From contig JAHFCY010000022.1 in the NCBI GenBank assembly GCA_023249255.1, positions 7,251 to 22,249 of the forward strand: a stretch of DNA of 14,999 bases, given 5' to 3'. Positions within the stretch are counted from its first letter, which is position 1. Every line of letters begins with the position of its first letter. Below the pieces are notes generated by a model that saw only the letters and a list, made by a program, of their open reading frames with translations, did no database searches and was not told where the DNA came from. The stretch is from Candidatus Lindowiibacteriota bacterium. Its GTDB lineage: Bacteria > Lindowbacteria > 2-12-FULL-62-27. The translations under genes and the position numbers were made by a program. Shown here piece after piece: positions 1 through 14,999 of this stretch.

Positions 1-797
1 CGACGGCGCTTCTCATGGATCTTCACGACGTCCAGAGCGGAAATTTTTTCGTCCGGCGCAATGTCAGCGGTCTTGAGCGCCTTTCGCATGCCTACGGCGT
101 CGATCCCGTTGAAGGACTTGTCGTCGACGCGCAGAACGTGCCGGTGCAGGTCCAGTCCCAGCAGGGATTTTTCATGGTCCAGTCCGTCGTGAATTATCCC
201 TACATCCCGCGCGTGACCGATCTTTCGCGGGAACACGCCGTCACGCGAAAAATTCCCGAACTTGCCCTGCCGTACGTGTCGGCGCTCACCGTCCGGGACT
301 CGTCCGGCGTCACCGTGCTGGCGAGAAGTTCCGCGGAGAGTTACCGGATCGCGCGGCCGTTCATCGTGCCGCCGGGCGAGCACGTGAACATCGATAATGC
401 CGACAGCGGCCCGTTCGTTCTCGGTGTTTCCATCCAGGGCGTCCGTCACAGCGCGTTCGCCGACACCGTCCCGCCGGTCCAGCACGCCGAAGGACCGGTG
501 CGCGTGATCGTGCTGACGAATTCGACGTTTCTGGATGAAGCCCGCGGCGCCGGCCCGGCCAACATGTCGTTCGCGGCCAACCTCGTCGACTGGCTGACGG
601 CATCCGAGGACATGATCGCCATCCGTTCCAAAACAAATACCTACCGCCCGCTGGAAAAAGTTTCGGACCGACGCAGGAATTTCATCAAGGTCTCCGACAT
701 CTTTCTCATGCCTCTCTGTGTCGCCGCGTTCGGCGTCATTCGCTGGCAGTACCGCCGCAACCGCCGCCGCCAATTCGAACCGCGGGCCTCCGCATGA
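1..797 (+). CDS. GldG-like ABC-transporter auxiliary protein, C-terminal part (5' end outside window)
   Basis: This is the C-terminal part of a GldG-like auxiliary protein (ABC_transp_aux / 'Gldg family'), which works with an ABC-2 type ATPase and permease in the inner membrane. The frame is open to the left edge (codons from position 3, before the ATG at 15), so the gene starts upstream and the ATG is internal. Visible family traits are the YGVDPVEGLVVDAQN segment, the later YPYIPRVTD segment, and a single C-terminal membrane helix (about residues 228-243 counted from the ATG at 15) followed by an Arg-rich cytoplasmic tail. Most of the visible part would be periplasmic. The stop overlaps the next start by 4 bp (ATGA), so the two are translationally coupled. 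In this family the ATPase and permease genes usually lie just upstream, which cannot be checked here. The substrate is unknown; a gliding role should not be assumed from the name. Confidence 0.8.
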   Translation, partial: TALLMDLHDVQSGNFFVRRNVSGLERLSHAYGVDPVEGLVVDAQNVPVQVQSQQGFFMVQSVVNYPYIPRVTDLSREHAVTRKIPELALPYVSALTVRDSSGVTVLARSSAESYRIARPFIVPPGEHVNIDNADSGPFVLGVSIQGVRHSAFADTVPPVQHAEGPVRVIVLTNSTFLDEARGAGPANMSFAANLVDWLTASEDMIAIRSKTNTYRPLEKVSDRRRNFIKVSDIFLMPLCVAAFGVIRWQYRRNRRRQFEPRASA

Positions 798-1303
798 GCC
801 CGCGGACGTTGGCCGTCCTGACCGGCGTTGCCGCCGTCCTTGCGCTCGTTTACGTTGTGAGCACGCGCGAGCCCGCCCCTCCCCCGGCGCCGGCGTGGAT
901 CTCTTTCGACACATCGGCGATCCATCGCGTCGAAATTCAGAATCCTCTCCATGGAAAACTTTTTCTTGAACGCGACGGACAGACGTGGAAAGGCATGCAG
1001 GACACGGTTGAGGTCATTCCCGACACCGGTGCGGTCGACGAACTTCTGACCATGTTTCTTTCCCTCAAATCATCCGAGCTTGTGTCCGAATCGCCCGAAA
1101 AGTATCGCCTCTTCGCGCTCGACACCGCAAACGAACTGCTCGTCCGCCTGAACGACCCGCCGGCCGCGGTTGTCCATGTCGGCCGGGACGGACCCGGCGG
1201 CGAGTTCACCTACCTGCGCCGCAACGACGATCCGGTCGTGTGGGCCGTGACCGGATTTCAAGGCTGGAAAATCTACCGATTTTTCCGCCCCGCGCAGCCT
1301 TGA
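794..1303 (+). CDS. DUF4340 domain membrane-anchored protein
   Basis: A 169-residue protein with an N-terminal membrane anchor (about residues 4-23) followed by a proline-rich stretch and a periplasmic DUF4340-type domain. The family signature is the run of beta segments containing YRLFALDTAN, VVHVGRDGPG, FTYLRRNDD and the final WKIYRFFRP. The start is fixed by the 4-bp ATGA overlap with the GldG-like gene; DUF4340 proteins commonly sit directly after GldG-like genes and are thought to be part of the same transporter complex, with no known biochemical role. At 169 residues it is shorter than many family members, which often carry more than one repeat, so this appears to be a single-unit version. 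It is the last gene of the operon: a new promoter and hairpins follow within 20-60 bp. Confidence 0.82.
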   Translation: MSPRTLAVLTGVAAVLALVYVVSTREPAPPPAPAWISFDTSAIHRVEIQNPLHGKLFLERDGQTWKGMQDTVEVIPDTGAVDELLTMFLSLKSSELVSESPEKYRLFALDTANELLVRLNDPPAAVVHVGRDGPGGEFTYLRRNDDPVVWAVTGFQGWKIYRFFRPAQP

Positions 1304-2478: not shown

Positions 2479-4041
2479 ATGGAACAGAAAAAGATCAGAA
2501 AATCAGACAGCGTCCAATTTGAAAAATCGCCCGTTGTGGCGCCGCCGGTGCAAAATCACCAGGACAAATTGAAAAAATTGATCGAGACGATCACGCTCGT
2601 GAACAGCGAGACGGGTCTGGATGATGTCCTGCGGCGCGTCCTGACCTGCGCGGCTGACATCGTGGGTGCCGAGGCGAGCGCGGTGTTGCTCATTGATTCG
2701 ATGGGGAAAAATTTACGGTTTGCGGCGGCCACGGGTCCGGCCTCATCGGAGGTGAAAAGATTCACGGTGCCGCTGGGGCGGGGAATTGCCGGCTGGGTTG
2801 CCGAGCACGGGCAGACGGTGGTGGTGCCGGAGACGTCGAAGGACCCGAGGTTTTACGGCAAGATCGCGGCCGAACTGGACGAACAGCATGAGTCGATGGC
2901 GGCGGTCCCGCTGAAAGTTAAGGGCCGGACGGTCGGCGTGATGGAGGTCATCCATTCCTCGGTGGAGATTCAGTTCAGCAAAGAGGACGTGGAAATTCTC
3001 GAGGCACTCGCGGGTCCGGTGGCGCTGGAGATTGAAAAGGCCCAACTCTACGACCGGCTGGCCGAGCAGAACCGGAATTTGAAATCGGCGCTGTCGGCGA
3101 AATTTTCATTTTCGGACATTCTGACGAAGGACGCGATGATGGATCAGATCATCGAGACGGGCAAGATGGTGGCGAAGACGGGATCGACGGTGATGATCAC
3201 GGGCGAGAGCGGCACCGGCAAGGAACTTCTGGCGCAGGCGATCCACAACGAAAGCGCCCGGCGCAACGGGCCGTTCATGACGATCAGTTGCGGCGCGATC
3301 CCGGAACATCTTCTGGAGGCCGAACTGTTCGGCTACGAGAAAGGCGCGTTCACGGGCGCGGCGTCCCGCAAGTTGGGCAAGGTCGAGTTGGCGGACGGAG
3401 GGACGTTATTTTTGGACGAAGTCGGCGAACTGCCGCTGTTATTGCAGGTGAAACTTCTGCGGGTCCTGCAGGAGCGGACGATCGAGCGCCTGGGCGGCAC
3501 GGAATTTCACAAAGTCGATGTGCGGGTGATCGCGGCGACGAACAGGCGGCTGGAGGACGAAGTGCGGGAGAAGCGCTTCCGGGAGGATTTGTTTTACCGG
3601 CTGAATGTGGTGCCGCTGGCCGTCCCGCCGCTTCGGGCCCGCAAAGCCGACGTTTTGCTCCTGGCGGATCACTTCCTGAAGAATTTCACCAAACAGATGC
3701 AAAAAACAGTCGCCGGATTTTCAGAGCGCGCCGTCCGGCTTCTGGAGGACTACCAGTGGCCTGGCAATGTCCGGGAATTGGCCAATGCGATCGAGCGAGC
3801 GGTTGTTTTGTGTACGACGGACAAGATCGAATTCAAGCATCTCAGTCTAACGCAGATGAAGGAGCTGTCGGACGACCGGATCGTCACGTTCAAAGACGCC
3901 CAGCACCGATTCAAGCGCGACTACATCATCAAAACCCTCGCCCTCACCAACGGCAACCAGACATCCGCCGCCAAAATGCTGGACATCCAGCGGACCTATC
4001 TGTCGAGATTGATGAAGGAGTTGAATATTCCATCGAGTTGA
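2479..4041 (+). CDS. GAF domain sigma-54-dependent transcriptional activator
   Basis: A 520-residue bacterial enhancer-binding protein with the order GAF - AAA+ - Fis-type HTH. The GAF sensor covers about residues 45-195 and is followed by a coiled linker. The AAA+ domain has Walker A GESGTGKE (242-249), the sigma-54 contact loop GAFTGA (289-294), Walker B GGTLFLDE (307-314) and the WPGNVREL segment. The Fis-type helix-turn-helix lies at about 491-517. All residues needed for ATP hydrolysis and sigma-54 contact are present, so it should be an active activator of RpoN promoters. There is no receiver domain and no adjacent histidine kinase, so the input is probably a small ligand or a partner sensed by the GAF domain, as in NorR- or FhlA-like proteins. 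The ATG at 2479 is the first in frame. I found no -24/-12 promoter in the intergenic regions of the window, so its targets are probably elsewhere. Confidence 0.93.
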
Positions 4042-5497: not shown

Positions 5498-6418
5498 ATG
5501 ACACCAATGGGGAGTGGCATCCTTCGAATAGGGGCGGTTGTTTTTGTGGTGTGGGTTGGAGCAGATCTGGGAGCCGGGTCGGCGGCGGTTGCGCGGGGAA
5601 CTCTGGTTGGCACGACGAGCGCAACGTTTTTGAAAATCGGGACGCAAGCGCGCGCGATGGGTCTTGGTGAAGCCGTGACGTCACTGGCGGATGGTGTGTC
5701 CTACGTCGGATACAATCCGGCGTGCGTGAAGATTGACGGACTGGCGCTGACGGCAAGCCACACGGCGTTGTTTGACGGCGTGAACCTCGAAGATGTGACG
5801 CTGGGGTTGGCGTTCGGAAAATCGGCGGGGATGATCGTCCGCGGAAACGGAATCCTGTTTGACAAAACGGAGCGGACAGACATTTCCGGAAACAGTCTGG
5901 GGACGTACAGCGCGTCCTCGTATTCGGCCGGTCTCGGATTTTACGTGCGCGGCGGCGACCTCACGTTTGGACTTCTCGGAAAAACCATCCAGCAAAACAT
6001 CGCGGGATTTCGGGCTTCCACCATGGCCGCGGACGCCGGCATCCGGTATCTGACTCCCTTGCCGGGCATAACGCTCGGCGTATCGGTTCTCAATGTCGGC
6101 CGGCCGGTGAAATTTATTGCGCAGGAGGACGAGTTGCCGCGCGCGCTTCGGGCCGGCATCGGCGCCGATTTCGGATATTTTCGGTTGGGGCTGGACGCCG
6201 TGAAGTACAGGGATCAGGACGTCTTTTTGTCGGCCGGCGCCGAGGTGACGATTTTCAAGGCATTGAGTTTTCGGGCCGGATACAGTAACCAGTCGGAATT
6301 ATCTTCACCGTTCAAAGCCGGGATCGGCTTTCGATTCTCGTTCATCGATCTTGATTACGCTTACAACGCCGGCGACGTCTTCGGCGCGACGCACCGCGTC
6401 AGTCTGACAATCCGATGA
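5498..6418 (+). CDS. PorV/PorQ-family outer-membrane beta-barrel protein
   Basis: A 306-residue predicted outer-membrane barrel of the PorV/PorQ family (FadL-like). A hydrophobic signal sequence covers about residues 8-22 with a possible cleavage after AVA at 30-32. The mature N-terminus has the family signature: FLKIGTQARAMGLGEAV (44-60), then ADGVSYVGYNPACV (64-77). The rest is alternating beta strands with aromatic girdles, and the protein ends on a strand (HRVSLTIR). In Bacteroidota, PorV is part of the type IX secretion shuttle; members in other phyla are mostly uncharacterised. The frame is closed by TAA at 5489-5491, so only the ATG at 5498 or the one at 5507 can be the start, and neither has a clear Shine-Dalgarno sequence. 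The stop overlaps the giant gene by ATGA, which indicates coupled translation and a shared role, for example export or anchoring of that protein. Confidence 0.85.
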   Translation: MTPMGSGILRIGAVVFVVWVGADLGAGSAAVARGTLVGTTSATFLKIGTQARAMGLGEAVTSLADGVSYVGYNPACVKIDGLALTASHTALFDGVNLEDVTLGLAFGKSAGMIVRGNGILFDKTERTDISGNSLGTYSASSYSAGLGFYVRGGDLTFGLLGKTIQQNIAGFRASTMAADAGIRYLTPLPGITLGVSVLNVGRPVKFIAQEDELPRALRAGIGADFGYFRLGLDAVKYRDQDVFLSAGAEVTIFKALSFRAGYSNQSELSSPFKAGIGFRFSFIDLDYAYNAGDVFGATHRVSLTIR

Positions 6419-9400
6419 ACAGGGTCGGCCTCTCCATATTATATATAGGGCTTCTGGCGATGGGGGCGGGGGCGGCGACGCTGGACGCATCGCGGTTTCA
6501 GCACACTGCCGCCGACAGTCACCTGCTTACCCGGGACATGGCGATTTCCGTGGGGTTATCGAACGCGGCCGGGGTTTCGTCGGTTACGGTATATTACAAG
6601 AGTCCGGATTTGAGTTCGTACAGGTCGAAGGCGATGCAAAGTTCCCAACCGGCCGGGACGTACAGCGCGACCGTTTCGTCGTCCGAACTTTCGCCGCTCG
6701 GTCTCACGTATTACTTCGAAGCGGCCTACAAAGACGGCGGCGCCTTCAGGTCGGGAGACTATGCGACGGTGATTCTGATCGTGGCGCCGTCGATTCTGGA
6801 AATGCTGTACCGGGATGACGCCAGCGGAATTGACGTCAAAGTTGCCAAAGGCGAACTCATTTTCAAAATCGATCCGTCCGTGTCCGCGGGTCTCATTCCC
6901 GCCGCGATCAACACGCTCGTCATTCGCGAGGGCGGCAAGGTTCTGGCGATCGACAACGCGGCGCGGCTTGTGCGCATGCAGGTTCCGGCGACAGCCGATC
7001 TGAAAACGCTCATGCAGGATGTTGAAGCGCAATCGTCCGTTGAATATGCCCAGCCGAACGGATTGTACGAGGCGACGCTGACTCCGAACGATCCGCGCCT
7101 GGCGAGCCAGTGGGGCACGCTTAAAATCCGCATGCTGCAGGCGTGGGACGTGACGACGGGCGACCCAAACGTGATCGTGAGCGTGATCGACAGCGGCCGC
7201 GATCCGATCCATCCCGATCTGTCCGGCGTTTTTCTGCCTGGCTACGACTACTACGACAACGATCCGGACCCATCCGACGTGGCGGGCCACGGAACGATGG
7301 TATCGGGTGTGATCGCCGCCGTCGGCAACAACGGCAAGGGTGTCGCCGGTGTGAACTGGCAGTGCAGGATTCTTCCGTATCGGGTCGGCAACCAATTCCT
7401 GTCGACGTGGGCGATTATTGAAGCGCTCCGGGCGGCGGCCGACGCCGGCGCGCGTGTGGTCAACATGAGTTTCGGATCGGGCGCAGGCATGCAGGCCGAG
7501 CATGAAGCGATTCAGTATGCGTACAACAAGGGCGTGGTGTTGGTGGCGTCGGCGGGCAATTCCTACACCACGGCGCCGATTTATCCGGCGGCGTATCCCG
7601 AGGTCATCGGCGTGGTAGCAACGACCAGTGATGACCAGAAGGCGGCATTTTCGTCCTACGGCAACTGGGTCGACGTGTCGGCGCCCGGCCAGGGAATTTT
7701 GACGACGACAGTCGGCGGCGGATATGGATACGTGGATGGCACATCGTTTTCGTCCCCGTACACGGCGGGCGTGGCGAGTCTCGTGCTGTCGGTCAATCCA
7801 ACGCTGACAAACGATCAGGTCCGGGAGATTCTGCGACAGACGGCGGTCGATCTGGGCGCGCCGGGATTTGATCCGTCGTTCGGGTACGGGCGCATCAATG
7901 CGGAAGCGGCGGTGCTGGCGGCCCGGCAATCTTCGAAGGACGACGCGGCCCCGACGATTACGCACAGCGCCCCGGCGACGGTGAAACCGGGCGTGTCGAT
8001 CACGATCGCCGCGCGGATCAAGGACAATGTTTCGGTCCACAGCGCGACGCTGTCCTACCGGCGGCAGGGACAGACCAGCTACGTCGAGTCGCTCATGCGG
8101 TATCTCGGAGGCGACACGTTCGAGGGCGTTATTCCGAAAGATTTCGTCGCGCCGCCGGGGGTGGACTACAAGATCGCCGCGCGGGATATGAAAGGAAACG
8201 TGGCACAGACGTCGGCGTTTGTCGTGCCGACTGAAGACGTGACGCCGCCGAACGTTCAGCACACGCCGCCCGACTCAGCCGAAACCGGCCGACCGCTGAC
8301 TCTGACGGCGTCGATCACGGATGATGTGGCGGTGGCGGAGGCGACGATGTACGCGCGCGTTCAGGGCGAAGCGGGCTTTGAGCGCTACGAGATGCATCTG
8401 AGATCGGCCGCGCTGTACGAGGCGACGATTCCGGACACGCGGGTGCATCAGCCTGCGGTCGAATATTACTTTGCCGCCGGCGACCCGGCCGGAAATTCCG
8501 CCGTTACCGGAAATCCCGGTTCAGCCGTTCAGCCGCACAGTATTTCCGTGAAGTATGTGGATCGGAACGGGCCGGTCATCACTCACACGCCGATCGCGAA
8601 CGGACAGATGAGCTGGAGGGATGTGCATCTCACCGCAACCATCGGCGACGACGTCGGCGTGACTTCGGCGAGGATTTTTTTCCGGACACAAGGTCAGATC
8701 GCGTATGAATCGGCGCCGCTCCTGGCGAAGGGCGGCAACATATATGAAGGCGTCATTCCGGGACGTGGTGTGGTTCGTCAGGCCGTCGAGTATTATCTGG
8801 ACGCGCGGGACGCCGCGCAAAACGTGCCGAGCGGCCTGACACCCGGGACGGCACTCCGGCCGAACGTGTTCATTGTTGCCGTCGACACCATTCCGCCAAC
8901 GATTCGTCATCAGGCCGTGGGTGACACGCCCGAACAGATCATCGAAGGCGTTCCGGTCAAACTGTCGGCTGTGGCGTTGGACAACCGCGGCGTGCGCGAG
9001 GTTCTCCTGAAGTACAAAAACGTTTCGGCTCCGGCGTTCCGCCAGCGGGCCATGACGTACACGATCTCCAATCGATACGAGGCCACATTTACGGAGGCTG
9101 ACGATCAGCCGCCCGCACTTGAATACTCCCTCATCGCGTCAGACACGGATGGAAACGAAACGACGTGGGGACCCGTCAGGGTGGCGGTCCACCCCAGGAT
9201 CGCGATTCCGACTCCGCGAGGCGATACGAACGCGTACTGGGTTCCAACGGCCTCCGTGATGCTCTGGAAAGATTCGCAGGCCGGAAATTTCGTTCGACTG
9301 AATATTCCATCGGCCGACACGGCGCGGTTTGCGTGGTCGACCGATTTGACAAAGTTGGTCATGACCGGCAAACGGAGCGAGACGTGGTTTGTATACGTCA

Positions 9401-12400
9401 TCCAGTTCAAGGACACGATGCCGACCGCCTATCAGGTCACCCAGGGCAAATGGACGGACCTGTTTCCGAGTTGGTCGGCCGATGGGAAGTATTTGTTGTT
9501 CGCGTCGAATCGAAACGGCGACTGGGACATTTTCATGACGCCGTGGGATTCCGATGGCGACGGCATTCCGGATTCCAACGGCGTTCCGATTCTGATTTCG
9601 ACGGACTCGGATGTGGCGTTGGGAGCCGGAGAAATAGCTGGCGTGGCGAGGCTGTCGGCCCCGAGGACGGATGAAATCATGCGCGGCCGCGTGGCGATTC
9701 TCGGCGGCGCGTTCGGCGTTGTTGAGGCGGACCGACTCTCGCAGGTTCCGGCGGAGAGCTATCGGGTTGTCGTTTTCCCGGAGTCATCCCCGTCCGACGT
9801 GACGACCCTGGCCGAAATCCGAAACCTCACCACCATCCTCTTCGACGCCGAACTTGCGCGATGGGACGTACCGAAAACCGCATCGGGTCGCCACGACGTC
9901 TGCCTCTACGTGAAAGGCAACAGGCGCGAGACAAAGGAATGCGTGAGCGTGTGGTTGCCGAAATTGTCGATCACTCTTCAGGCGGCTCCCTCCGTGATCG
10001 GTCCGGGACAGACTGCCGTTCAGGTGGAGGGCGAGGTTTCGTACAATTATGGTTCGCCAGGCTCGGAGTTGCCCGTAACGATCCGGATCGCCGGCCAGCC
10101 GGACGTCCTTCAGACGCGAACCAACGGCTCCGGCCGATATGCGACGAGTATTCCGGCGCCGATAGACCCGGGGTTTTACCAAGTGTCTGCGACCGTAACG
10201 GACACGTACGGCTACGACGCAACGGCGACTGCGATGATCCACGTTGTCGCCGAGAAACTTGCCCTGACTTTGAATCTCACGCCGTCTGAAACGTATCCGT
10301 TCATGCCGGTTCTTGCCGCGGGGCAAGCCTCATATGGCACCGCCGCGCCGCTGATATACCGTGAAGTCGCTCTTGAAATCGTTGAAACGCAAAAACGATA
10401 TTTTGCGCTGACTGACACTGACGGCCGGTATTCCATCGCGCTCGCGGCCCCGGAAATTCCCGGCGTCTACACCGTTCACGCTCATGCAACCGACGGCGTC
10501 TCCATCGTCCACGCGGAGGCGCCGCTGAAGGTCAAAGCGCCGGAGATCGACATCAGCGAGTTGCTTGCGCCGCCCGTCGTCTTTACGGGTGCGTATACGT
10601 CCGTATCGGGCACGGCTGTTTATCATTTCTCGGGCCGGCCGCTGATCGACAAAACCGTGACGATCCGGCCGTCTTGGATATCGGCCGCCATGGACGTGAA
10701 AACGGACAGCGTCGGCCGATACATCGCCATCGCGCAGGCGCCGGCGACAGCCGGGACATATCCGATCCCGGTTTCCGTGACGGATGGATATGCGACGGCA
10801 ACCAATCAGCAAACGCTCACCGTGGCGAACTTCGCGTATGGCATTCCCATGAAACTCGAAGCGACGTTGAGACTGGATCCGGTGACGTCGAAGATCGGCC
10901 GCAAGGTCCAAGCGTCCGGTGAGATTTCGTACGTCTATCAGTCCTGGCGCTGGCCGGTCGAATCCGCGGGGGTCCAACTTGCCGTTGAAGGAACATCGAT
11001 CAGCCGGACGATTCAACTGACGGGGAACGACGGCGGAAAATATTCGACGATGCTGGATGCGCCAAAAATTCCCGATACGTACGTCGTGAGAGTTGATGCC
11101 AAAGATGTCTGGAAACTGTCGGCGTCCGCGGAAACAGACTTCATTGTGATTGATTGGCCCCTGACGATAACCGCGCATGCAGAGCCTCCGGATCCATACC
11201 GAAACGACGCGTTCCATCTCAAAGGGTCCATCCGTTATCCGGACGGATCGCCGGTTCAGGGCGCTGCCATGGAAATTCGATCTGATCCGCCGCGTTTAAC
11301 GCCTCTCAATCTCCCGGCCAATGCACGCAGCGGCGATTTTGATCTGGCGGTGATCGCGCCCAATATTCCGGACACGTATGTCCTTACCATCAGCGCTGCC
11401 GATACATTCGGCGGGACCGGCTCCGGCATCGTGACTGTGCTCGTGCGTCCGCTCAGTTTGTTGCTGACGGCATCCCTGCAGGACACGATGATTCCAGCCC
11501 GGGCGCCGGCTGTCATCTCCGGGTCGGTCGTGTATCGAGAGACGGCGAAGGCGTCGGCTTCGGCGCAGATTTCGATCAAGAGCGTCCCGGGCCGATTTGG
11601 ATCTGCGAGCGTGGCGACGACTGCGGCCGGAAATTTTCTTGAAGGTATGAATTCGTCCGGCGAGGAAGGATACGAAACCTTCGAAGTCACGGCTTCGGAT
11701 GGATGGGCGACGGCGGATACACAAGTCAGCGGGCTGGTGATCGCCGATTCCATCGTGGCCACTCTGATTCTGGACACGGACGTGGCGCCGGCCAAACGTT
11801 CGGTTCGGGATCGGCCGTCCGGCATCGGATTGACGGCCATCCCGCGCCATCCGAAAGGCCTGCCGCTCTTTCGGGAAGGAATCATGAAGGTGTGGCTGAC
11901 CGATTCGACGAGCGGCGCTGTCATCTGGCAGACGGCCGTGGCGGATTCGGCGCTCGGGCAAGGCCGGCAAATCAGACAATCCGATCGAATTCAAATACCG
12001 ATTCCGACTACCGCCGGCCAGTACCGCGTGACGTATTGGGTCGAGGACCGGTACGGCATCGGCGAGTCGTCCGTATTGCTTACGATCTATCCGGTCGAGA
12101 CGGCCAGGCTCGATCTGTATCTTGAGACAAACGTGGTTCGCGGCGGGCAGGAGTTGGTGGCGTGGGGTACGATCTCCGTTGACGAACCGGGCGTGGACAT
12201 CGCCGTCGTCGATTTGCAAAACAGCGGCACACAAGAGCGCTGGGATTGTCCGTATCGGCCTGCTGAAAAAAAATTCTACAAGACGATCAAGGCGCCGCTG
12301 GCGGAAGGGGCGTATCCCATCGTCGCGTCCCGAACCGTGAACGGCGAATTCTTGCAGGACGTGGAAATGTTGTTTGTCGTGACGGGACCGCCGCTACCGC

Positions 12401-14999
12401 CTGAAGTTATCGAGACTCCCGGCACGTCACCGTCCGTCCCGGCTCCCCGAGTGCGGAGCATTCTTGTCACGGTACCTCCGCTCATTGAAGCCGTGCCCGG
12501 TTCCCCTGTTGTGGTGGAAGGCTCCGCGCATTATTCGACCGGAGAAGAAGTGGGATCGGGGACGTCACGCCTGTTTCGGCTTGGTTCGATCGAACTTGCG
12601 GCCGTTCCGTTGTCCAATCATGGCAGATTTCGTTATCCGGCGATCGTGGCACCGTCGGTTCCGACCGACTACGAAGCGGTCGTGAATGACGGCACATTGA
12701 CAGGCCGCGCGCGATTTAAAATTGTGCCGCCACCCCCACCGCCCCCCTGGACGCCGGTGATTCCGTCCCCGCAACCCACTCCGGTGAGTCCGACATCCCC
12801 GTCGCCGATTTCCCCCGCTCAGCCGTCGGCGCGGGTTTCAGCGGACACCACGTATGACGAATTTTATCCGGTGCAGTCACCGGACGGCAAATACATCGCC
12901 TATTCGCGACGCCTTACGGGAACGTCCGATCCGCTCAATGTGTATATTCTCCGCTGTGACAGCCCGGCCGTGGTGACCGCATTCACGACAGAGAACGGCA
13001 ACGATCAATTCCCGGACTGGTCGCCGGACGGTAAATATCTGGCATTCGGCTCCAAACGCTCCGGAAACTATGACATCTGGATCAAACCTGTGGACGGAAA
13101 CGGTGATGGCGTTCCGGATACGACGGGGGAAGCGCGGCAACTGACGACGTGGGAGGGCGAGGACAACAAACCGACGTGGTCTCCGGACGGACAGAAACTG
13201 GCGTTCCATTCAGACCGCGAGGGAAATTACGATATTTTTGTCCAAAGTCTCATTGACGCCTCGCCTGCGGTCCGGCTGACCACGAGTTCCGCCTGCGACG
13301 CGCATCCGCACTGGTCGTCCGACGGCCGGTATATAGTTTTCCATTCAAACCGCCCGGGCCGAGTGGCGCTGAATCCCGAGGGAACCGACGCGATTTCGAT
13401 CGGGCTGGTTCTGGATCAAAGCGGGAGCATCGACGACTGGTCGTTTAGGGAGATGTCGGATGGCGTGATCCACCTCGTGAACAATCTAAATGCTGGAATG
13501 CCGATGTCAGTGACGCATTTCGGCCATCGCGCAAAATATGTCCAAGACTTCACGGAAGATAGAAAACTTCTGCGAAAAGCGGCGGGAGAAAGATCTTTCT
13601 ACAGCAGCACCGCGATGTACGACGGTCTCATGGAGTCCATGTCGCATCTGACGGATCGTCATGGCCGGCGGATAATTATCTTGGTGTCGGATGGATGGGA
13701 CAACGCAAGTTCGAAAACAGAAGCGGACGTTCTGACGTACGCGCGAGAATACGGTATCGTGATTCATACCGTATATGTGCAGAATCCAAACTATCCTGCT
13801 CAGACAGACCGTTTGAAAGGCTTGAGCCAGGCAACCGGTGGACAGTATCTCGAAATCGACACTTTCGAAGACGTGGGTGAGAGCCTCGTCAACATTTTGC
13901 GCATTTACAACGATCTGCTGGCGAATTTCAACATTTGGGTGATGCCGGTGTCTGGCGGCGCCGCGCGTCAGCTGACGGATCATATTGCCGACGATCTGTA
14001 TCCGGCGTTCAGTCCCGATGTGAAGAAGATTGCGTTTGTTTCATTTCGTTCCGGCCATGGAGACATTTATGTGCTCAAGTTTGATCCAAATTCCACTGAG
14101 CCGCCTAAAATACTTTATCCGCCGGTGGCCCGTGCCCGCGCCGACACAATTCTGATAACGGTAGACGTACCGGTCGGATTCGATGCTTCAGCGTCGAGCG
14201 ATTCCGACGGATGGATCGACACGTACGTATGGGATTTCGGAGATGGAACGCGAAGATTGGGTGTCACGGACAGTCATGTCTATGCGACGCCGGGAACCTA
14301 TGTCGTCCGCCTGACGGTGATCGACAACGACGGCTTGACTGGCAATGACACGCGTCTGGTGGAGGTGATGCCCAAGCCCATCGCGCCTGTTCCCGTTCCG
14401 CCTCGAAAGAAATATCCACCGGTTGCCGTGGCGCGGGTTGATACCAATCTGACGACCGTTGGCACGTGGCTGTTGGCGGACGGTTCGCAGTCGTCGGATT
14501 CGGATGGAAAGATTGACACGTATGTGTGGGAGTTTGGCGACAGTGGTGTTGGCCGGGATTCATATTCGGCGCATTCATACACCATGCCGGGAGCGTACGT
14601 CGTCCGTCTGGTTGTTACCGATACCGATGGGTTGAGCGATGACGACACGTGTATTGTGGTCATATTGCCTAAACTATCACCGCCCCATCGTCTGCCTCCT
14701 GTCGCCATTATTTTGGCGGACACGACACATCTGCAGCATGCTTGTCAGGAATGTGGAGAGGAAGGAGGAGACGACAAGGGCGGAGAGGATGATGAGGGGG
14801 TTCGACCGAATGACAACAACGGCGGCCATGGGGATCATGGCGACGATGACCACGCCGATGACGGCAAGAATTCGCAACCGACGTGTCCCGGATTTGGCAT
14901 TACATTTGACGGCCGCCGGTCGTTCGATCCGGACGGGCGGATTGTTTCTTACGCATGGCATTTCGGTGACAGCATGACCGGCGTCGGTGAGACTGTGGC
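6415..14999 (+). CDS. Giant secreted multidomain protein: subtilisin, Ig-like repeats, PD40 propeller blades, VWA and PKD domains (3' end outside window)
   Basis: The frame is open without a stop from the ATG at 6415, which overlaps the previous stop, to the window edge: 2861 complete codons. In residues: signal peptide about 1-21; Ig-like domain 25-115; propeptide-like segment 165-235; S8 subtilisin 243-503 with D259 (DSG), H292 (GHGT), oxyanion N382 (AGN) and S444 (GTSFSSP); four Ig-like repeats 511-927; two PD40 blades 974-1065 with the Ca2+-type loop DSDGDGIPD (1045-1053); a link with C1163/C1176; about nine beta-sandwich repeats 1183-2104; Pro-rich linker 2105-2138; PD40 blades from 2143; VWA 2325-2500 with MIDAS D2334/S2336/S2338, T2399, D2426; last PD40 blade to about 2557; PKD domains from 2569. 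It should be exported to the surface or medium, where the protease is likely active and VWA, PKD and Ig-like parts give adhesion and reach. The C-terminus, and any sorting or anchor domain, is not visible. Domains are from motif reading; repeat borders are approximate. Confidence 0.9.
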   Translation, partial: MNRVGLSILYIGLLAMGAGAATLDASRFQHTAADSHLLTRDMAISVGLSNAAGVSSVTVYYKSPDLSSYRSKAMQSSQPAGTYSATVSSSELSPLGLTYYFEAAYKDGGAFRSGDYATVILIVAPSILEMLYRDDASGIDVKVAKGELIFKIDPSVSAGLIPAAINTLVIREGGKVLAIDNAARLVRMQVPATADLKTLMQDVEAQSSVEYAQPNGLYEATLTPNDPRLASQWGTLKIRMLQAWDVTTGDPNVIVSVIDSGRDPIHPDLSGVFLPGYDYYDNDPDPSDVAGHGTMVSGVIAAVGNNGKGVAGVNWQCRILPYRVGNQFLSTWAIIEALRAAADAGARVVNMSFGSGAGMQAEHEAIQYAYNKGVVLVASAGNSYTTAPIYPAAYPEVIGVVATTSDDQKAAFSSYGNWVDVSAPGQGILTTTVGGGYGYVDGTSFSSPYTAGVASLVLSVNPTLTNDQVREILRQTAVDLGAPGFDPSFGYGRINAEAAVLAARQSSKDDAAPTITHSAPATVKPGVSITIAARIKDNVSVHSATLSYRRQGQTSYVESLMRYLGGDTFEGVIPKDFVAPPGVDYKIAARDMKGNVAQTSAFVVPTEDVTPPNVQHTPPDSAETGRPLTLTASITDDVAVAEATMYARVQGEAGFERYEMHLRSAALYEATIPDTRVHQPAVEYYFAAGDPAGNSAVTGNPGSAVQPHSISVKYVDRNGPVITHTPIANGQMSWRDVHLTATIGDDVGVTSARIFFRTQGQIAYESAPLLAKGGNIYEGVIPGRGVVRQAVEYYLDARDAAQNVPSGLTPGTALRPNVFIVAVDTIPPTIRHQAVGDTPEQIIEGVPVKLSAVALDNRGVREVLLKYKNVSAPAFRQRAMTYTISNRYEATFTEADDQPPALEYSLIASDTDGNETTWGPVRVAVHPRIAIPTPRGDTNAYWVPTASVMLWKDSQAGNFVRLNIPSADTARFAWSTDLTKLVMTGKRSETWFVYVIQFKDTMPTAYQVTQGKWTDLFPSWSADGKYLLFASNRNGDWDIFMTPWDSDGDGIPDSNGVPILISTDSDVALGAGEIAGVARLSAPRTDEIMRGRVAILGGAFGVVEADRLSQVPAESYRVVVFPESSPSDVTTLAEIRNLTTILFDAELARWDVPKTASGRHDVCLYVKGNRRETKECVSVWLPKLSITLQAAPSVIGPGQTAVQVEGEVSYNYGSPGSELPVTIRIAGQPDVLQTRTNGSGRYATSIPAPIDPGFYQVSATVTDTYGYDATATAMIHVVAEKLALTLNLTPSETYPFMPVLAAGQASYGTAAPLIYREVALEIVETQKRYFALTDTDGRYSIALAAPEIPGVYTVHAHATDGVSIVHAEAPLKVKAPEIDISELLAPPVVFTGAYTSVSGTAVYHFSGRPLIDKTVTIRPSWISAAMDVKTDSVGRYIAIAQAPATAGTYPIPVSVTDGYATATNQQTLTVANFAYGIPMKLEATLRLDPVTSKIGRKVQASGEISYVYQSWRWPVESAGVQLAVEGTSISRTIQLTGNDGGKYSTMLDAPKIPDTYVVRVDAKDVWKLSASAETDFIVIDWPLTITAHAEPPDPYRNDAFHLKGSIRYPDGSPVQGAAMEIRSDPPRLTPLNLPANARSGDFDLAVIAPNIPDTYVLTISAADTFGGTGSGIVTVLVRPLSLLLTASLQDTMIPARAPAVISGSVVYRETAKASASAQISIKSVPGRFGSASVATTAAGNFLEGMNSSGEEGYETFEVTASDGWATADTQVSGLVIADSIVATLILDTDVAPAKRSVRDRPSGIGLTAIPRHPKGLPLFREGIMKVWLTDSTSGAVIWQTAVADSALGQGRQIRQSDRIQIPIPTTAGQYRVTYWVEDRYGIGESSVLLTIYPVETARLDLYLETNVVRGGQELVAWGTISVDEPGVDIAVVDLQNSGTQERWDCPYRPAEKKFYKTIKAPLAEGAYPIVASRTVNGEFLQDVEMLFVVTGPPLPPEVIETPGTSPSVPAPRVRSILVTVPPLIEAVPGSPVVVEGSAHYSTGEEVGSGTSRLFRLGSIELAAVPLSNHGRFRYPAIVAPSVPTDYEAVVNDGTLTGRARFKIVPPPPPPPWTPVIPSPQPTPVSPTSPSPISPAQPSARVSADTTYDEFYPVQSPDGKYIAYSRRLTGTSDPLNVYILRCDSPAVVTAFTTENGNDQFPDWSPDGKYLAFGSKRSGNYDIWIKPVDGNGDGVPDTTGEARQLTTWEGEDNKPTWSPDGQKLAFHSDREGNYDIFVQSLIDASPAVRLTTSSACDAHPHWSSDGRYIVFHSNRPGRVALNPEGTDAISIGLVLDQSGSIDDWSFREMSDGVIHLVNNLNAGMPMSVTHFGHRAKYVQDFTEDRKLLRKAAGERSFYSSTAMYDGLMESMSHLTDRHGRRIIILVSDGWDNASSKTEADVLTYAREYGIVIHTVYVQNPNYPAQTDRLKGLSQATGGQYLEIDTFEDVGESLVNILRIYNDLLANFNIWVMPVSGGAARQLTDHIADDLYPAFSPDVKKIAFVSFRSGHGDIYVLKFDPNSTEPPKILYPPVARARADTILITVDVPVGFDASASSDSDGWIDTYVWDFGDGTRRLGVTDSHVYATPGTYVVRLTVIDNDGLTGNDTRLVEVMPKPIAPVPVPPRKKYPPVAVARVDTNLTTVGTWLLADGSQSSDSDGKIDTYVWEFGDSGVGRDSYSAHSYTMPGAYVVRLVVTDTDGLSDDDTCIVVILPKLSPPHRLPPVAIILADTTHLQHACQECGEEGGDDKGGEDDEGVRPNDNNGGHGDHGDDDHADDGKNSQPTCPGFGITFDGRRSFDPDGRIVSYAWHFGDSMTGVGETV
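7141..7923 (+). other. Peptidase S8 (subtilisin-like) catalytic domain within the giant protein
   Basis: The Asp motif VIDSGRDPIHPDL has D259 (codon 7189-7191), the His motif AGHGTMVSGVIAA has H292, the oxyanion hole is SAGNSYT (N382), and the Ser motif DGTSFSSPYTAGVASL has S444 (codon 7744-7746). The domain closes with FGYGRINAEAAV, as is usual in bacterial subtilisins. About 75 residues before it resemble an I9-type or fervidolysin-like propeptide, including the common NDPRLASQWG that precedes mature S8 domains. Nothing suggests inactivation. Confidence 0.95.
7945..9195 (+). repeat. First Ig-like repeat array, four copies of about 100 residues
   Basis: Copies begin near residues 511, 610, 719 and 826. 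Each opens with a PxIxHxP-type turn, then a strand, a D(D/N)xxV segment (KDNVSVHSATLSY, TDDVAVAEATMYA, GDDVGVTSARIFF, LDNRGVREVLLKY), a YEATI/YEGVI strand, and an EYYFAAGDPAGN-type closing strand with the xDxxGN signature. The same pattern appears once before the protease (residues about 25-115). Likely a rigid stalk or ligand-binding fold. Confidence 0.75.
9961..12720 (+). repeat. Second beta-sandwich repeat array, about nine copies
   Basis: Copies of about 95-115 residues begin near residues 1183, 1282, 1378, 1481, 1583, 1680, 1780, 1897 and 1995. The common pattern is: a leading L-rich strand, VxGxVxYxxGxPL, VxI, TDxxGRY (DTDGRYSIAL, DSVGRYIAIA, NGSGRYATSI), a xxAPxxPGxYxVxVxVTD segment and a final LxV strand. 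It resembles carboxypeptidase-regulatory-like or big Ig-like folds but matches no family I can name with certainty. The last copies are the most degraded. Confidence 0.65.
12727..12828 (+). other. Proline-rich linker in the giant protein
   Basis: Residues 2105-2138 are mostly Pro, Ser and Thr, starting with a run of seven Pro. This low-complexity linker separates the second repeat array from the PD40/VWA module. Confidence 0.8.
13390..13920 (+). other. VWA domain with complete MIDAS, inserted in a PD40 blade
   Basis: Residues about 2325-2500 form a von Willebrand A domain: ISIGLVLDQSGS carries D2334, S2336 and S2338, YSSTAMYDGL supplies T2399, and IIILVSDGWDN supplies D2426, so the metal-dependent adhesion site is intact. 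The blade before it stops after FHSNRPGR and resumes after it with FNIWVMPVSGGAARQLTD, exactly where an unbroken blade such as FHSDREGNYDIF would run on. Confidence 0.85.
14119..14999 (+). repeat. Three PKD domains, the third interrupted and cut by the window end
   Basis: PKD copies start near residues 2569, 2666 and 2762, each opening with a PPVA(x)A segment. Signatures are SSDSDGWIDTYVWDFGDG, SSDSDGKIDTYVWEFGD and SFDPDGRIVSYAWHFGD. The first two end with TPGTYVVRLTVIDNDGL and MPGAYVVRLVVTDTDGL. In the third, about 45 residues rich in Asp, Gly, Glu and His are inserted between the first strand and the rest (about 14737-14880), next to three cysteines (2777, 2780, 2824). Confidence 0.9.

Follow-up and report, generated by a model that had tools for sequence, protein, structure and literature searches.

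Multidomain cell-wall subtilisins of the C5a peptidase and lactocepin type carry a subtilisin followed by arrays of beta-sandwiches and are held at the surface by Gram-positive sortase or wall anchoring, with no propeller or VWA domain. Type A cargo proteases of the T9SS, such as the gingipains and mirolase, combine a signal peptide, an N-terminal propeptide, a protease and a C-terminal type A domain with the Sov/SprA translocon. In F. johnsoniae, all type A sorting domains use one PorV, and the type B sorting domains have cognate SprF-like barrels (PMC12618676). Type B cargo, exemplified by SprB-SprF of Flavobacterium johnsoniae and PG1035-PorP of Porphyromonas gingivalis, is very large or surface-held and is thought to be kept uncleaved in Bacteroidota by PorP/SprF-like barrels (PMC9143113), which are often encoded directly 3' of the cargo gene (PMC12618676), and its anchoring needs no sortase (PMC9143113, PMC12618676). 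Among propellers, TolB is a periplasmic component of Tol-Pal built of PD40 repeats, and the integrin I domain follows blade 2 and precedes blade 3 in a propeller of seven blades (PMC12422189).

The window, that is, the whole stretch of 14,999 nucleotides that was analyzed, contains a giant gene that shares traits with each of these systems, preceded by a gene for an outer-membrane barrel. The features are as follows.

5498..6418, plus strand: PorV/PorQ-family outer-membrane barrel gene, probable dedicated T9SS shuttle or anchor (NF033709, 123 bits; cut-off, 90)
6415..14999, plus strand: giant modular subtilisin gene, 5' 82%, continuing on contig C5 (locus L034 7681-9786, minus strand)
6415..6477, plus strand: probable Sec signal peptide, residues 1-21 (by inspection: charged start, hydrophobic core, AGA-A)
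6493..6783, plus strand: Ig-like domain of the array 1 family, residues 27-123 (internal profile, 90 bits)
6850..7059, plus strand: Fervidolysin-type propeptide, residues 146-215 (PF22148, 18 bits, below the cut-off of 21)
7168..7890, plus strand: subtilisin S8 catalytic domain, residues 252-492 (PF00082, 2e-55)
7954..9198, plus strand: array 1, four Ig-like domains, residues 514-928 (internal-repeat profiles)
9262..9684, plus strand: first PD40 run, two clear blades (residues 973-1057), perhaps with a degenerate third; limits at both ends approximate
9961..12747, plus strand: array 2, nine beta-sandwich repeats of a second type, residues 1183-2111 (internal-repeat profiles)
12844..14088, plus strand: TolB-like PD40 propeller unit of five blades, residues 2144-2558, the fourth blade split by a VWA domain
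13390..13923, plus strand: VWA domain in blade 4, residues ~2326-2503 (PF00092, 39 bits; fold match to VWA and integrin I domains)
14119..14997, plus strand: PKD domains, two complete and a third cut at the contig end, plus an acidic linker (PF18911)

The giant frame (+1) runs from the ATG at 6415 to 14997 as 2,861 codons without a stop, as a sequence-only reading of this DNA had claimed, and both orthologues described below keep the frame throughout. Across 200 windows simulated with a Markov model of matching dinucleotide content, the longest run without a stop, whatever the frame, had a mean of 295 codons and a maximum of 457, and the GC contents of the frame at the three codon positions (0.61/0.49/0.69) display a coding pattern. 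The last base of the window is the end of contig C147 in the source genome (G000, a draft of 366 contigs that is 89% complete). The frame was therefore rightly described as still open at the window edge, but what interrupts it is an assembly break, and the rest of the gene lies on contig C5. Comparison of the giant protein with its own genome retrieved 58 residues with 97% identity at the end of C5, and the ends of C147 and C5 overlap by 176 bases with 2 mismatches and the frame kept. Extension downstream, as the same reading had proposed, revealed on C5 a part of 701 codons in all that ends in a stop and includes a T9SS sorting domain, giving a full length of ~3,504 residues. The join, with its imperfect 176-base overlap and its synteny, is well supported rather than proven.

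Only two further genomes of the same family (G001 and G002) are present among those compared; the next nearest genomes are related to them no more closely than at the level of the taxonomic domain. These two genomes, which are 94 and 81% complete drafts, yielded the orthologues that the sequence-only reading had suggested seeking, full-length proteins of 4,102 residues in G001 and 3,174 in G002 that are 51-53% identical to the giant. In named genomes, only remote matches of the subtilisin or TolB type were obtained. The three giants align nearly gap-free over residues 1 to ~2,560 and likewise over the last ~300. The region in between varies in length and is swapped, consisting of PKD domains in G000, of PKD domains, a further module and a beta-helix in G001, and essentially of a Thr/Asp-rich linker in G002. 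The order of the surrounding genes is common to all three genomes. Directly 3' of the giant lies a small zinc-protease-like gene (HExxHxxGxPH; weak Pfam M10 match), followed by a second gene that has no Pfam or NCBIfam match, and both are kept in G000 (on C5), G001 and G002. The two genes are located at L032 14583-16246, L033 949-2866 and L034 6127-8165 (the last on C5 of G000), and in G001 both overlap the giant and one another by 4 bases. On the 5' side, 1.5 kb ahead of the PorV-family gene, the same strand encodes a sigma-54-dependent activator with a GAF domain (NifA-like; window 2479-4041), and a CorA-like gene on the opposite strand lies between the two. Further upstream (window 15-1303 with L002 4482-7298) are ABC transporter genes and genes for GldG/ABC_transp_aux-like and DUF4340 proteins, a set that resembles those annotated as gliding-associated in Bacteroidota and whose GldG-like gene is broken by runs of N on the contig.

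Pfam and internal-repeat profiles bear out the domain order first read from the letters alone (Ig-like, propeptide, subtilisin, arrays, PD40, VWA, PKD), with one Ig-like copy before the protease and four after it, then nine repeats of the second type, and with the third PKD domain completed by C5. Three features go beyond that reading, namely, the T9SS C-terminal domain outside the window, the position of the VWA domain within a blade, and the upstream PorV-family shuttle. The PF22148 propeptide match recurs in all three orthologues. The triad and the oxyanion Asn of the subtilisin are intact (D259 at 7189, H292 at 7288, N382 at 7558 and S444 at 7744) and invariant in all three proteins, and the closest solved structure is that of thermitase. 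By these residues the catalytic domain is a subtilase (S8), and a putatively active one. Elsewhere in G000, contig C238 (L108 2219-3886) encodes another subtilisin that bears a T9SS-type sorting domain but is much smaller.

The second PD40 unit presents whole blades at residues 2149-2195, 2197-2240, 2250-2293 and 2527-2566, with an interrupted blade between the last two. In each of the three orthologues, the match to this blade (2295-2318 in the giant) breaks off at profile position 22 to 25, immediately N-terminal to the VWA domain, and in the giant of G000 a weak remainder of blade 4 (profile positions 22-35) was detected at 2502-2519, directly after it. An AlphaFold model of the unit, built from a three-row alignment, is of moderate quality (pLDDT 71.5, pTM 0.57) and places one blade strand before the VWA domain (163-168) and one after it (363-368). 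The blades superimpose on TolB with a Z of 21.8 over 212 residues, and the insert superimposes on the integrin alpha-M I domain with a Z of 16.6. The MIDAS is complete in the giant (D2334xSxS, as DQSGS, with T2399 and D2426), and both orthologues have DESSS with the T and D, making the VWA domain a candidate metal site as judged from its motif. An arrangement in which the first PD40 run and the later five blades, spanning ~1,600 residues, form one composite propeller was also considered.

The unit shares the propeller fold and PD40 repeats with TolB but differs from this periplasmic protein in that a VWA domain is nested in a blade, five blades are found in the segment, and the whole belongs to an exoprotein. 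Like the I-domain integrin alpha subunits, it has a beta-propeller that accommodates a VWA domain with a MIDAS, but it is no integrin. In those subunits the I domain separates blades 2 and 3 of an FG-GAP propeller with seven blades, whereas the VWA domain of the giant lies in the middle of blade 4 of a PD40/TolB-type propeller, and the integrin-like topology presumably arose independently. A profile search of 386 genomes found the propeller-VWA unit in full only in the three same-family genomes, with the blades alone matched in ten others (E cut of 1e-25). This distribution agrees with the earlier statement that no named family has the architecture of the giant, and none of the NCBIfam whole-protein models scored above its own cut-off for this protein. 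Taken singly, all of the domains are well known, and other giant subtilisins are also equipped with Ig-like, propeller and PKD modules. One of them, encoded in a distant lineage (G043 C4, L057 3554-13132), has 3,192 residues with BACON, CBM96, kelch, CARDB, PKD and TIG domains and parallels the giant protease, although its propeller differs. The literature searched yielded no account of giant T9SS subtilisins, of this domain combination, or of an adhesion-type domain nested in a propeller blade; the parts are familiar, and it is their combination and the VWA-in-blade nesting for which no description was found.

The C-terminal region of the giant scored 23.5 bits against TIGR04183 (cut-off, 23), a margin of only 0.5 bit in this C-terminal scan, and 25.3 bits in the genome scan, and the orthologues scored 23.3 and 24.2 bits. 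Its AlphaFold model (pLDDT 79) shows seven strands in an Ig-like fold, and among solved structures it matches the sorting domains of PorZ, PorU and RemA best (Z of 9.7, 8.3 and 8.0), other Ig folds reaching no more than 7.9. A profile of the sorting domains of the lineage retrieved PorU (4e-9) and PorZ (4e-8) from the PDB and, weakly, the Ig domains of FlgD (E of 0.001); a profile of the three giants alone gave no significant PDB match. In G001, contigs C6, C19, C28, C34 and C40 contain many giant frames that end in T9SS sorting domains, of up to ~9,100 codons (C6), and further tail matches to sortase models occur in frames of up to ~10,450 codons (C40).

The source genome encodes a Sov/SprA homologue of 1,815 residues, the counterpart of which in G001 has 1,825 residues and is 66% identical. 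It was detected with TIGR04189, at 50-69 bits against a curated cut-off of 200, and by profile-profile comparison with three clear SprA proteins of other genomes (E of 3.6e-43 over 1,022 columns); Pfam SprA_N matched no genome and was uninformative. By these scores the translocon of the lineage appears divergent. No catalytic PorU is present among the matches listed in G000, G001 and G002, which cover only the sorting-domain segment of PorU, whereas in four comparison genomes PorU scores 618-910 bits over nearly the whole model. If the three drafts are independently incomplete, the chance that PorU is missing from all of them is estimated, from their completeness, at ~0.1%. A Peptidase_C25 match in G000 was rejected as PorU: it lies in a frame of ~800 residues with no T9SS domain, beside a TPR gene, and was read, by inspection only, as a CHAT-like protein. 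The search for GldM gave no match in any genome searched and is uninformative on the T9SS motor.

The PorV-family gene falls below the cut-offs of the PorV, PorQ and PorV2 equivalogs. Its stop overlaps the start of the giant by 4 bases (ATGA), the same overlap is present in G001 and G002, and its product is 56-64% identical to the upstream neighbors of the orthologues. The three genomes together contain 53 sorting-domain matches and 31 merged PorV-family places, 11 of which start 75-233 bases 3' of a sorting-domain match on the same strand (chance of ~0.8% each); the giants add three loci in the reverse order, with the PorV-family gene first. On the type A model, the scores of sorting domains with a linked PorV-family gene are lower than those of unlinked ones (medians of 25.5 and 36.2 bits; Mann-Whitney p of 7e-5). 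In G001, mean mutual identity is 33% among the nine linked domains and 57% among the 20 unlinked (permutation p of 6e-4), and a close neighbor (0.66 or more) exists for 18 of the 20 unlinked domains and for one of the nine linked ones. Such lower scores and greater diversity are the pattern that private recognition would produce. The distances among PorV-family proteins and among sorting domains are uncorrelated (Mantel r of 0.10, p of 0.33, n of 9), with distances near saturation. Some comparison genomes that bear PorU also pair PorV-family matches with sorting-domain genes (e.g., G003 C5 and G046 C27), so that the pairing does not need the absence of PorU; it is not confined to this lineage and, for type A-like domains, may just have gone undescribed. 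Four comparison genomes (G003, G046, G009 and G059) have 11-39 PorV-family matches each, some directly beside sorting-domain or PorU-like genes, and PorV multiplicity looks widespread among T9SS-bearing genomes.

We consider it fairly probable that the giant is a protease-adhesin exported by the T9SS, held at the outer membrane and served by a PorV partner of its own. It would leave the cell by the T9SS, given its signal peptide, its type A-like sorting domain, the Sov/SprA translocon and the PorV-family partner, and this predicted route is well supported by sequence. Because the three same-family genomes gave matches only to the sorting domain of PorU, the sorting domain of the giant is most likely retained, leaving the protein non-covalently bound to its own PorV barrel; PorV-family barrels would then hold cargo as PorP/SprF-like barrels hold type B cargo in Bacteroidota. 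Once outside, the giant would lose its propeptide and cut with the protease at its N-terminal end, while the VWA/MIDAS in its propeller and the Ig and PKD arrays could form a metal-dependent binding head and its stalk. The surface-displayed adhesin-protease of the sequence-only reading thus largely holds up in form, given the signal peptide, sorting domain, coupled PorV gene, Sov/SprA, intact triad and MIDAS; beyond form, we infer the retention on PorV, the binding of a ligand, the cleavage of a substrate and a role in nutrition or attack.

This reading has three rivals. The contig break inside the gene and the two differing positions in the overlap could mean that misassembly created the frame by fusing smaller genes, but this is extremely improbable, as the same protein is uninterrupted in two independent genomes with like flanking genes on both sides, and C5 carries on into the downstream genes of the orthologues. 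The weak FlgD match and the marginal TIGR04183 score would fit a C-terminal domain that is a FlgD-like Ig domain unrelated to the T9SS, in a protein that is exported otherwise or periplasmic. We regard this as very unlikely in view of the far better matches to PorU and PorZ, a fold ranking headed by three T9SS sorting domains, and the presence of Sov/SprA and the PorV family in the genome.

A stronger competitor, although still rather unlikely, accepts the T9SS and makes the giant ordinary type A cargo, whose sorting domain is removed and whose protease is released or covalently attached, the neighboring PorV gene being a paralogue with no private role. The type A-like character of the sorting domain, the single PorV that serves all type A domains in F. 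johnsoniae (PMC12618676) and the uncorrelated PorV and sorting-domain distances are all in its favor. It fits less well with the lack of a PorU catalytic match among those listed for the three genomes, with the translational coupling of the PorV gene to the giant in all three, and with the many further PorV-cargo neighbors with divergent sorting domains. The giant does share with the gingipains and mirolase the signal peptide, N-terminal propeptide, protease, C-terminal type A-like domain and Sov/SprA, yet it is a subtilisin rather than a C25 protease, has 3,504 residues and a propeller-VWA unit, and possesses a private PorV-family neighbor in a genome where no PorU was found.

Among the described systems, type B cargo is close in operation to the preferred reading of an outer-membrane-held giant, which shares with it its size, a probable surface location, an adjoining barrel gene and anchoring that would need no sortase. 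It has neither the TIGR04131 domain nor the adjacent PorP/SprF-family barrel of that family: TIGR04183, not TIGR04131, is among the models reported for its C-terminal 701 residues, and its barrel belongs to the PorV family and is encoded upstream rather than downstream. As we read it, the giant works with its barrel like type B cargo and yet stands outside that family. With the subtilisins of the C5a peptidase and lactocepin type it shares the subtilisin, the beta-sandwich arrays and, probably, a place at the cell surface, the propeller and VWA domain being found only in the giant. The wider picture, of a PorU-less T9SS in which many type A-like cargoes are collected and held by their own PorV-family barrels, together with an independent integrin-like arrangement in a giant protease, is put forward tentatively, as a serious possibility.

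If true, cargo-specific shuttle pairs would not be confined to type B, and private pairing would be a general option of the T9SS, while the many type A-like cargoes with PorV-family neighbors, together with the lack of a detected sortase, would suggest sortase-free display. The MIDAS domain in a TolB-type blade appears to be an independent version of the integrin arrangement and offers a way to ask how an adhesion domain is presented or restrained by the propeller that holds it. The giant gene also exemplifies the very large exoproteins to which this lineage, so far poorly sampled, devotes its genome.
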